From: Carbonactinospora thermoautotrophica | GTDB taxonomy: Bacteria; Actinomycetota; Actinomycetes; Streptomycetales; Carbonactinosporaceae | NCBI RefSeq assembly: GCF_001543895.1 | Contig: NZ_JYIJ01000015.1 | Span: 62,001-126,000, forward strand | Direction of reading: 5' to 3' | DNA length: 64,000 nt | Part shown: positions 4,557-34,993 of the stretch, piece by piece | How positions within the stretch are numbered: the first letter of the stretch is position 1 | How the letters are laid out: each line of letters begins with the position of its first letter | Position numbers and translations under genes: made by a program | Notes under the pieces: generated by a model | The model's database searches: none | What the model was told of the DNA's origin: nothing | The model's input: only the letters and a program-made list of their open reading frames with translations

Positions 4557-6620
4557 TCAGGACCCGCGCTCCTCCGGCTGCCCCACGTGCACGTCCACGT
4601 CGATGGTCAGCTCGTCCACCGTGAACCCGGTGAAGTTCTCGATGCTGCTGATCACCCGGGAGCCGACGGCGCCGGTGACCGCGGAGATCACCGCACCGTA
4701 CTCGACGACGAGGTCGAGCTTGACCGCCACCGCGCCGTCCTTGACCTGGACCGTGACCCCAGGCACCTCCTCCGGCTCGCGGTCATCCGCCTGCGGCGCC
4801 CGGCCGACCCCGTACACGCCGGGCACCTGCCGGGCGGCCGCCGCCGCGATCTTGGCGATCACGGCGTCGCCGATGGACACGCGGAGCCGGTTCGCGTACT
4901 CCGCCGGTTGCTGGCTCTCCACCGGCCCGGTCAGCGGCGGCGAGACCGTCTCCGGCACGCCTTCTTCCGCGGCGGTCCCCTCGGAGCCGGCGGGTGGTGC
5001 GTCGTCCGCCCGCGCCTGGTCACGCGCGGCATCGGACGCCTCATCGGAGGTTGTACCAGCGTGGCCCGTCCCGGCCGTCTCGTCCCGCGAAACCTCGGTC
5101 ACCTCGGCGCCGGAGCGCGCTGCCGTCGGCTCGCCCGCGGCGTGCGCTGTGACGTCCGCTCCGCAGGCCGCCTCCGACTCCTCCTCAGGCGTTGACGACC
5201 TGGCCGGTTCCTCGGCCGCGGGCGTCCTGGACGCCTCCGGCGTACCTGACGGCTGCGCGGGGGGAGGCGTGCTGCCCGCCTCCGCGTCCGGCTGGGGCGG
5301 GTGCTCGCCGGACGCGACCGGTGTGGCCGTGACCTCGGCGGCCAGGTGCGGAACGGAGTTGGCCACGGGCGCGCCCGGTTGGGCCGGGCCCGCCGCGTCG
5401 GCCGGGTAGGGAGGTGGTGCCGGGTACGACTGGTACGGCTGACCGGACGCGGCGTACGGCTCGGTGTACGCCTCGGCCGGCTGGGCGGACGGCGGCGCCT
5501 GCTCGGACGGCGTTGGCGTGTCCTCCGGAGCCGCGCCGTCCACGGACGGCTGCTCCCCGTGCCCGTCGAACCGCGCGGCCTCCCCAGCCGGGCCAGGCCG
5601 GGCAGCCGGCTGGTCCACGTACGTTCCCGCCAGCCCGAAGGGGGCCGCTCGGTCACCCTGCTCCGGCGGCTCGGCGGGACTCGCCTGCCCGGCGAGCCCC
5701 GGCACGGCCTCATCCGCGGGACGGGTCGGCACGGCATCGGGCTGCCATGCCTGCTCGAAGTGCTCGGCCGCCGGGACCCCGCCGGCCGGCGTGGCCGAAC
5801 TCCCCTGGTAAGCCGCCGGCTGCTCGGCGTAGCCGCCCGCCGACGGAGCGTGGTCGGGTGCGGGCTCCGGGGCGGACCACTGCCCGGCATAGGCGCCGGC
5901 TGCCTCGGCGTAGGGGCCGGCCGGCTCGGCGGCCTCCTCCGCAGCGCCCGCGGGTTCCGGGTCCCCGGACCGGGAAGCGGGGTCGGGGTACGCAGCCGTG
6001 GGCTGTGCTGGGGGCAGGGGTGGTTCCAACGCGCCGAGGCCGACGGGTGCGGGCTGTGGGGGCTCCACGAAGCCAGGCCACCCAGGCTCGGAATGCCGCG
6101 GCTGGCCGAGGTCGGCCGGCGCCTCCGGGCCGGGCGGCTCACCCGAAGCGGGCTGGCCCGGCGCATGGCCGGGGTCGGCGCCCGGCCGCTGCTCAGCGGT
6201 CGCGCCGGAGGCTGGAGCCGCTGCGTGGACATCCTGGTGGACATCCTGGTGAGCCAGAGGCGCCGGGGGATGGTCGCCGGTGTGGGGGCCGGGTCGGTTC
6301 TCCGGCATCGCGTGTTCAACCACTGGGTGTTCTCCGCTGGTCGGTCGCGCCACCGCGTGGTGGTCGATCAAGGGCTGGGCTGTGGCGGGCTGACCGGATC
6401 GGGGAACGCCGTTCCCGGCACCGCCCGCGTCACCTGCGCCGCCGGAGGCGGACACCGGTCCGGGGATGCCGTATCCCGGCTGGGGCGCGATCGGGGTCCA
6501 GGGCGTGTGCCCGTCCACGGGCCACGCCGGGTGGTGGTCGTCACCCGCACCGGCCGCCCGCGGCGGGGCACCAGGCTGCGGCCAGGCTGCCGGCTGTGGC
6601 GCCACCACGTAGTCCGTCAT
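4557..6620 (-). CDS. Asp23/Gls24 family envelope protein with very long disordered N-terminus
   Basis: 687 aa from the ATG at 6620, which has GGAG five bases upstream; an earlier in-frame start at 6680 lacks this. Only the last ~115 residues form an Asp23 domain (EYANRLRVSIGDAVIAKIAA onward, ending in VDVDVHVGQ), a fold linked to envelope stress and membrane-associated scaffolds. The preceding ~560 residues are rich in Pro, Ala, Gly, Glu, Gln and Ser, with loose repeats such as AYAGQW, GGYAEQPAAY and AEAYTEPYA, and are predicted to be disordered. No signal peptide or membrane span is seen. Asp23 proteins are usually 100-200 aa, so the extension is unusual. It may tether the domain or act as a phase-separating linker; this is inference. 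Confidence 0.85.
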   Translation of the reverse strand: MTDYVVAPQPAAWPQPGAPPRAAGAGDDHHPAWPVDGHTPWTPIAPQPGYGIPGPVSASGGAGDAGGAGNGVPRSGQPATAQPLIDHHAVARPTSGEHPVVEHAMPENRPGPHTGDHPPAPLAHQDVHQDVHAAAPASGATAEQRPGADPGHAPGQPASGEPPGPEAPADLGQPRHSEPGWPGFVEPPQPAPVGLGALEPPLPPAQPTAAYPDPASRSGDPEPAGAAEEAAEPAGPYAEAAGAYAGQWSAPEPAPDHAPSAGGYAEQPAAYQGSSATPAGGVPAAEHFEQAWQPDAVPTRPADEAVPGLAGQASPAEPPEQGDRAAPFGLAGTYVDQPAARPGPAGEAARFDGHGEQPSVDGAAPEDTPTPSEQAPPSAQPAEAYTEPYAASGQPYQSYPAPPPYPADAAGPAQPGAPVANSVPHLAAEVTATPVASGEHPPQPDAEAGSTPPPAQPSGTPEASRTPAAEEPARSSTPEEESEAACGADVTAHAAGEPTAARSGAEVTEVSRDETAGTGHAGTTSDEASDAARDQARADDAPPAGSEGTAAEEGVPETVSPPLTGPVESQQPAEYANRLRVSIGDAVIAKIAAAAARQVPGVYGVGRAPQADDREPEEVPGVTVQVKDGAVAVKLDLVVEYGAVISAVTGAVGSRVISSIENFTGFTVDELTIDVDVHVGQPEERGS

Positions 6621-34238: not shown

Positions 34239-34526
34239 TCAGGGCGCGTCGCCGCTGTCGCCGCGCTCCAGGTGGCGCCGGATCGCCTTCACGTCCTCCG
34301 CGATCTCGCGCAGCAGATCCACGGCTGACCGCTTGTCCGCTTCCGCCGGCCTCATCGCCTTCTTCCGGCGCTCCCGCTCCTGCTCGACGGCCTGACGTGG
34401 CCACAAGAGAACGTTGTCGGGCTGTAGCCGAGCACCCAGTCGGCCGGAGAGCTGCCGCATGCGCCGGGGTGAGATGCCAAGGATCTCGGCGGCTTCCGCG
34501 GTTGTGATCCAGTCTCGCGCGGTCAT
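34239..34526 (-). CDS. Excisionase-like helix-turn-helix protein
   Basis: 95 aa. An N-terminal MerR/excisionase-type HTH (WITTAEAAEILGISPRRMRQ) is followed by ARLQPDNVLLWPRQAVEQE, the usual wing with a Trp, then a charged helix (VDLLREIAEDVKAIRRHLER) that may dimerise as a coiled coil. Such proteins bind DNA in mobile elements or act as small regulators; no integrase is nearby. TATGGT eight bases before the ATG suggests an almost leaderless message. It is divergent from the Cys-rich frame at 34631. Confidence 0.72.
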   Translation of the reverse strand: MTARDWITTAEAAEILGISPRRMRQLSGRLGARLQPDNVLLWPRQAVEQERERRKKAMRPAEADKRSAVDLLREIAEDVKAIRRHLERGDSGDAP

Positions 34527-34586
34527 CGTCGCGGACCATACCCGGCATCTCGTTGACCACCGCTGAGCGACGCCGTAAGGTCTATT

Positions 34587-34605
34587 AGGCGGGAAATCAT
34601 CGCCT
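34587..34605. promoter_or_regulatory. Dyad between the HTH gene and the Cys-rich frame
   Basis: AGGCG-9-CGCCT lies midway between the divergent starts at 34526 and 34631, so it may be a shared operator. Confidence 0.3.
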
Positions 34606-34630
34606 GTACTACCTGAAATGAGGGGAGGTA

Positions 34631-34879
34631 GTCACGGACAACCAGGGACCCAACCTGATCACCCCAGAGGCCACGTTCCTCGGGCATGCGCTGTTCGTAC
34701 GCGAGTCGCCGGGCGGGTCGCGGTGCTACGCGTGCCCCACTTGCCGAAGTCACTTCTGCGACCGACTGCCCGAGACGGTGTGCCCTGGTCAGTACGTCGC
34801 GCATCCGGATGTGTGCGTGTGCGTCCGGTGCGACCCGTTCGGCGTCGGTGGTGAAAGGAGGTGGCGGCCTTACGGCTGA
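34631..34879 (+). CDS. Cys-rich small protein, start codon unclear
   Basis: The frame encodes about 82 residues. It starts TDNQGPNLITPEATFLGHAL, carries the cluster RCYACPTCRSHFC, then ETVCPG and VCVCVRCDPF, so nine cysteines that suit one or two zinc sites. Codon bias is good and a strong ribosome site (GGGGAGG, 34622-34628) precedes it, but no ATG, GTG or TTG follows in frame; ACG at 34634 is best spaced. Either a rare start is used, or the ATG was lost. A terminator follows at 34926-34954. The family is unknown; such proteins occur in conjugative elements. Confidence 0.45.
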   Translation, partial: VTDNQGPNLITPEATFLGHALFVRESPGGSRCYACPTCRSHFCDRLPETVCPGQYVAHPDVCVCVRCDPFGVGGERRWRPYG

Positions 34880-34925
34880 GGGCTTGCTCTGACATCTCTC
34901 CCTGAACGCAACGCATCCATACGAA

Positions 34926-34954
34926 ACCCCCGGTAGCGCACTCCTACCGGGGGT
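34926..34954. terminator. Intrinsic terminator, probably bidirectional
   Basis: ACCCCCGGTAG pairs perfectly with CTACCGGGGGT around a 7-base loop, and on the plus strand TTTTT follows. It would end the Cys-rich gene's transcript and, on the minus strand, the ctaB transcript. One of the few classical Rho-independent terminators in the window. Confidence 0.88.
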
Positions 34955-34993
34955 TTTTCGTTCCGCTCGGCGCGCGGTTCCCGACGCCGGGGT

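Follow-up and report, generated by a model that had tools for sequence, protein, structure and literature searches.

The window analysed here, a stretch of 64,000 nucleotides from Carbonactinospora thermoautotrophica (C15:62001-126000 of a 5.13 Mb assembly), carries a gene for a small cysteine-rich protein, called the Cys gene below, which has a strong ribosome site and no standard start codon. With a probability of roughly 0.6 we read it as a lineage-specific gene of mobile elements that is weakly translated from near-cognate codons and probably restrained by IF3. Two paralogues are located in the same genome on the contigs C13 and C17. The features of the window copy are collected in Table 1.

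The Cys frame opens after an in-frame TGA (34619-34621) with the codons GGG GAG GTA GTC ACG GAC and stays open to its stop codon. ATG, GTG and TTG are absent from the first 48 codons and the first canonical codon, a GTG at 34778, lies 3’ of the CPTC motif. An earlier note on this DNA had described GGGGAGG in place in front of a frame lacking all three canonical starts, and for the part before the cysteine core this was borne out. Its count of nine cysteines has to be corrected to eight. Six of them (C34-x2-C37, C50 and C61-x-C63-x2-C66) are invariant across the window protein and its paralogues, as are the histidines H18 and H57. These residues suggest a metal site, and the small protein probably binds zinc. 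The ACG, which the note had named as the best-placed start, follows GGAGG at a spacing of 5 nt; this choice is favored by the spacing and by exclusion of the alternatives.

Table 1. Features of the Cys gene region, numbered from the first nucleotide of the window
Feature	Position	Strand	Details
Excisionase/MerR-like helix-turn-helix (HTH) regulator gene	34239..34526	-	95 aa, ATG start; divergent from Cys gene
Possible promoter of Cys gene, TTGACC-17 nt-TAAGGT	34553..34581	+	by eye, below scan threshold
Inverted repeat ACTACCT/AGGTAGT	34608..34632	+	arms 34608-34614 and 34626-34632; RNA hairpin or DNA operator
Shine-Dalgarno site GGGGAGG	34622..34628	+	read from sequence
Cys-rich small protein gene	34634..34879	+	81 aa, near-cognate ACG (34634-34636) to TGA (34877-34879)
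3’ motif CCCTGAAC...AACGCATCC	34900..34918	+	between stop and terminator; pattern search
Intrinsic terminator	34924..34958	+	10-bp stem (34927-34936/34944-34953) followed by T5

The start-less pattern is not rare by itself. We applied a strict rule demanding a ribosome site, a near-cognate codon at a distance of 4–8 nt, 75–160 open codons and no canonical start upstream or within the first 30 codons. Scanning 155 kb of the genome, which contain 587 GGAGG sites, we found the pattern at five places, the window’s included. The case for a gene therefore rests on comparison.

A search with the window protein alone detected the two further copies with E-values of 6.3e-37 and 7.8e-25. The proteins of C13 and C17 are 67% and 51% identical to that of the window and the alignment is gapped in frame only. 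An HMM of the three proteins revealed no fourth copy in the genome, the next best match having an E-value of 0.84. Gene order is kept in all three cassettes: a divergent HTH gene is followed by the Cys gene, the 3’ motif and a terminator-like hairpin. The pattern of the 3’ motif has three genomic matches, one in each cassette (two on the forward and one on the reverse strand), and none when the pattern is reversed as a control. A third gene, convergent to the Cys gene, accompanies just the C13 and C17 copies (L007:5451-5741 and L008:5367-5684), and these two loci also share a block of 318 bp at 74% identity. The third gene has no Pfam match and its best PDB match, 2’-deoxynucleoside 5’-phosphate N-hydrolase 1, is very weak (E 0.76); together with a motif it hints at a nucleoside deoxyribosyltransferase-like fold.

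In all three copies of the Cys gene a strong ribosome site is followed at normal distance by a near-cognate codon (5, 8 and 6 nt from GGAGG in the window, C13 and C17), and no canonical start is found there. In C13 the ribosome site is followed after 8 nt by ATC GCC AGC TTC AAC GGC GAC, in C17 after 6 nt by ATC GCA AGC TTC AAC GGC GAT. Starting with the ATC, seven successive codons of C13 and C17 are identical or synonymous, reading IASFNGD in both. In the 15 nt before the ATC only 3 positions are identical without gaps, and a gapped alignment matches mainly GGAGGT. ATC is thus the near-cognate codon in two of the three copies. The ACG of the window sits in a leader that is not homologous to the leaders of C13 and C17, since 741 and 988 of 1000 shuffles aligned equally well. 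As the leaders are unrelated, the ACG is not homologous to the ATC of the paralogues. The earlier note had asked whether ACG replaced ATG. The paralogues, with their ATC in an unrelated leader, give no such picture, and nothing in the sequences supports a derivation of ACG from either ATC or ATG. A frame of five codons in the window leader (ATC GCC TGT ACT ACC TGA, 34599-34616) looks like the opening codons of C13; it was left as chance because it lies in another frame than that of C13 and because the leaders align no better than shuffles.

Canonical codons are present further upstream in frame in both paralogues, an ATG 5 codons before the ATC in C13 and a TTG 12 codons before it in C17, the latter near the presumed transcript start. 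The paralogues might therefore start there, perhaps on nearly leaderless transcripts, and the window copy, with its unrelated 5’ region, would have lost its start and would not be made. We consider this unlikely. The sequence preceding the ATC is not conserved between the paralogues, and with a start at the upstream codons the ribosome site would come to lie within or behind it (the ATG of C13 overlaps the site), which is the kind of misannotation reported for sigR in PMC5472188. Moreover, the window protein has kept all six invariant cysteines and its unique changes show the synonymous excess described below. Another explanation concerns the window alone: ACG is one base away from ATG at a well-spaced position, so the true codon at 34634 could be ATG, with ACG reflecting a sequencing or assembly error or a single-base difference between strains. 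Window and genome are one assembly, which therefore provides no independent check of the ACG. However, the paralogues show no canonical codon at normal distance either, having ATC instead, and we regard a hidden ATG as improbable, even more so than a start lost in the window.

Selection on the frame was assessed in pairwise comparisons of the three copies. Only frame +0 lacks stops in both sequences of every pair. It also has the lowest pN/pS (0.46, 0.56 and 0.58) with a synonymous excess at p 0.0013, 0.0043 and 0.0088, values that come from pairs which are not independent of each other. In a single pair an antisense frame comes to p 0.044, yet holds 6 stops. Judged just by codon position, a clear departure from evenness was seen only in the pair of window and C13 (p 0.008), with p 0.20 and 0.07 in the other two. 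When changes unique to one copy were compared with an assumed synonymous share of 25%, 14 of the 32 window-unique changes were synonymous (p 0.016) and, within the core, 13 of 24 (p 0.0021). No significant enrichment was found for changes unique to C13 (8/24, p 0.23) or C17 (15/50, p 0.25), and those of C17 look close to neutral. The window frame has thus evolved as a protein-coding sequence and is not obviously decaying. Taken with the conserved cassette in three copies, selection on the frame bears out the earlier argument for a gene, and as judged from these comparisons the Cys frame of the window is very probably real. The suggestion that it could be a remnant is upheld in one respect: the C13 and C17 copies are found in mobile-element settings, and in the window the core of HTH and Cys gene stands without the third gene and without flanking repeats. 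The protein itself, with its invariant cysteines and synonymous excess, does not look like a decaying one.

Conservation extends beyond the frame, as the 3’ motif lies outside it and a terminator-like hairpin occupies the corresponding position in C13 and C17. The terminator that had been noted after the Cys gene was confirmed in the window, with the stem and T-stretch given in Table 1. Of the 14 pairs of the consensus hairpin, 5 are kept through a two-sided change in at least one copy; at 7, one of the three copies has a broken or gapped pair. With an unfavourable covariation term (+0.56), conservation of the hairpin lends the predicted terminator modest support. One could suppose that a regulatory RNA or DNA element is the conserved unit and the open frame a by-product, open frames being common in this G+C-rich DNA. 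This is very improbable, as the excess of synonymous changes falls in the only frame without stops, the gap is in frame only and six cysteines are invariant. Rfam searches at gathering thresholds and tRNA searches of the loci L001, L007 and L008 also gave no match.

Upstream of the Cys gene a scan of the window region found no promoter. The possible promoter in Table 1 was recognized by eye, and -10-like words similar to the window’s were read in C13 (TAGGAT) and C17 (TAGGCT). The dyad that the earlier note had seen between the two divergent genes is present. As RNA it would fold over the ribosome site and the ACG. The 41-nt core has a z-score of -1.88, with 9 of 200 shuffles folding as well; for the whole leader of 73 nt the z-score is -1.10 (28 of 200). 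A hairpin that would hide the ribosome site speaks against our preferred reading of a weakly translated gene. In the window it may act as a second brake on translation, or the repeat may be a DNA operator.

The divergent HTH gene had been proposed as a regulatory partner of the Cys gene, and its conservation in all three cassettes is in keeping with this. The window HTH protein is 42% (C13) and 55% (C17) identical to its counterparts over ranges including some leading residues of uncertain translation. It matches Pfam HTH_17 with an E-value of 6.6e-5 and 23.5 bits, below the curated cutoff of 27 bits. It also matches phrog_66 (‘excisionase and transcriptional regulator’, E 1.4e-4) and, equally well, phrog_57 (‘terminase small subunit’, E 1.6e-4). 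For the excisionase family TIGR01764 the three copies scored 14.4, 14.2 and 22.4 bits, all under the cutoff of 28.8. A profile search for the HTH protein detected 3 places in this genome and none in 59 other genomes (E 1e-5). Used as bait, it led to three distant loci in metagenome genomes of Anaerolineae/Chloroflexi and one viral locus, with short matches only. The arrangement resembles excisionase/MerR-like HTH modules of integrated elements, in which a small HTH_17-type protein likewise stands beside small element genes. It differs from them in that the HTH scores stay under curated cutoffs and the partner Cys protein is without a match in Pfam and NCBIfam. By reading, a canonical codon is found where conservation of the HTH proteins begins (ATG, GTG and GTG in the three copies), and the third gene of C17 starts with ATG after AAGGAG. 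Compared with these, the Cys gene alone lacks a canonical start within the cassettes.

The surroundings of the C17 copy are those of an island. The copy adjoins an HNH protein. At a distance of about 8 kb, at one island end, lies a large serine recombinase whose domains Resolvase, Recombinase and Zn_ribbon_recom all score above cutoff. Complementary half-sites GAGTGTGCGTGTCGTCACA at 643296 and 652972 apparently form the boundaries of the island. A 42-bp palindrome of the GAGTGTGCGTGTCGTCACA word is found uninterrupted at C17 625852-625893 and in a shorter form at 658281. A further element end, cut off, was observed at the start of contig C13 (L056 58). The HNH gene of the island contains two tandem copies of 120 nt, which are 83% alike (L008:8295-8534).

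For the C13 copy the setting is an islet flanked by perfect direct repeats of 58 bp, 2297 bp apart (L007:3423-3480 and 5720-5777), one of which is located at the 5’ end of a gene named metG-like by reading. Close to the HTH gene of this islet, 13 TGGAACTT words, 11 of them exact, occur in both orientations within 270 bp (L007 4273-4540), and the whole 11-kb locus has 17 such words with at most one mismatch compared with 2.3 expected. The array is iteron-like and may be a site of replication or partition; when C13 is aligned with C17, the latter lacks an equivalent for most of it.

Reading of the ORF lists revealed no recombinase around the C13 copy, including its islet, or around the window copy. 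The window has the core of HTH and Cys gene only, and no long direct repeats were found nearby. At third codon positions, G+C amounts to 0.80 in the Cys gene and 0.84 in the HTH gene. For ctaA, ctaB and tkt, genes named by reading, it is 0.93–0.96, and lower values are what one expects of imported DNA. Altogether, the cassette appears to belong to mobile elements, with settings of this kind seen for the C13 and C17 copies.

All confirmed members of the Cys family lie in one assembly. No homologue was confirmed in 98 genomes of relatives or in 293 genomes of the order, 394 of the class and 396 of the phylum, the latter three sets overlapping and including the genome itself; further genomes of the organism's own family did not appear among the relatives searched. 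A scan of genome contigs with two short peptide patterns matched 45 stretches, none of which was confirmed, and neither a pattern scan of viral contigs nor a search of plasmids and phages with the C13 protein yielded a confirmed homologue. In the viral loci L052 and L053 the matching frame is interrupted by stops and runs antisense to a gene named capsid-like by reading, and both were rejected. Weak genome matches were obtained at L004 (E 0.0024), L013 (0.0064), L014 (0.0098), L049 (5.4e-5) and L050 (9.3e-4). On re-scoring no match was left at L004, L014, L050 and L012, and of the two that still matched, L013 contains a stop. L049 keeps the C-x2-C spacing (CSLC) and its match ends there, without the C-terminal cysteines; its E-value is for one genome of the 396 searched. 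Neither was accepted, though the weak candidate L049 may be a homologue.

The three proteins had no match in Pfam, NCBIfam or PADLOC, and one PHROG was matched at E 0.017 by the C13 copy only. Weak PDB matches to 2i13 ‘Aart’ (E 5.1e-4, no stretch passing alone) and SCO3027 (E 0.59) were set aside. With a pLDDT of 48.5, the structure predicted by AlphaFold for the Cys protein is too poor to support zinc binding. From its place beside an excisionase-like gene on elements, a role of the protein in maintenance or excision of the element may be guessed. Among the open-access matches listed, which were judged by title and start of abstract, we found nothing on the Cys family, which has no name to search by, or on non-canonical starts in mobile-element cassettes.

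A precedent for the proposed start is infC. PMC5472188 reports that infC of Streptomyces starts with ATC, that IF3 represses such starts and that it was shown to repress the GTC start of sigR as well. The infC gene of our genome reads AAGGAGG-CCCC-ATC-AGC. GGAGG-N4-ATC was present in all 25 infC loci read, our own and those of 24 relatives, with 26 genomes matched. Nine of the 25 have no canonical in-frame codon upstream, and 16 have one at 9–56 codons before the EPRIN motif. The Cys gene shares with infC the layout of GGAGG, few nucleotides and a near-cognate ATC. It differs in that infC is a housekeeping gene with an autoregulated AUC/AUU start in a closed feedback loop with IF3, whereas the Cys gene is lineage-specific, has copies on mobile elements and an ACG in the window, and is not known to take part in IF3 feedback.

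With sigR of Streptomyces it shares, by inference, the bacterial order, and further an extended ribosome site, a low set-point of expression (predicted for the Cys gene) and, as with the ATG of C13, a canonical codon that overlaps the ribosome site and would be chosen in annotation. A difference is that sigR encodes a sigma factor with an antisigma partner, while the partner of the Cys gene would be the divergent HTH gene. In our genome two SigR-like genes score above the family cutoff, and one of them (L061) has GAGGAGGTGGGTCAGGTC at its 5’ end (about 1482-1494, reverse complement), which is compatible with the GTC start known for sigR of Streptomyces.

By exclusion of other codons and by analogy with infC we infer initiation at ACG in the window and at ATC in the paralogues. 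The HTH protein would probably control the promoter region between the two divergent genes. The mRNA would be bound through its strong Shine-Dalgarno site, and fMet-tRNA, which pairs poorly with ACG or AUC, would initiate with low efficiency. IF3 would reject most of these complexes so that little protein is made, and more would be made when IF3 is limiting. Control by IF3 is suggested here by the established behavior of near-cognate start codons.

According to PMC5472188, few non-canonical starts of bacteria have been characterized by experiment and start prediction assumes ATG, GTG and TTG. Comparison of paralogues, as used here, can reveal genes that are missed by such rules. More tentatively, and with clearly less confidence than we place in weak near-cognate translation itself, the three copies may represent a family of mobile elements with start-codon fidelity in its control, in which translation from AUC or ACG only would report the IF3 activity of the host. 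The amount of Cys protein would then rise as initiation fidelity falls, and mobile DNA would share the IF3 switch of its host. The three copies (ATC, ATC and ACG) form a directly testable set of starts for control by IF3. They would add a further case of non-canonical starts in this order besides infC and sigR, located on mobile DNA.
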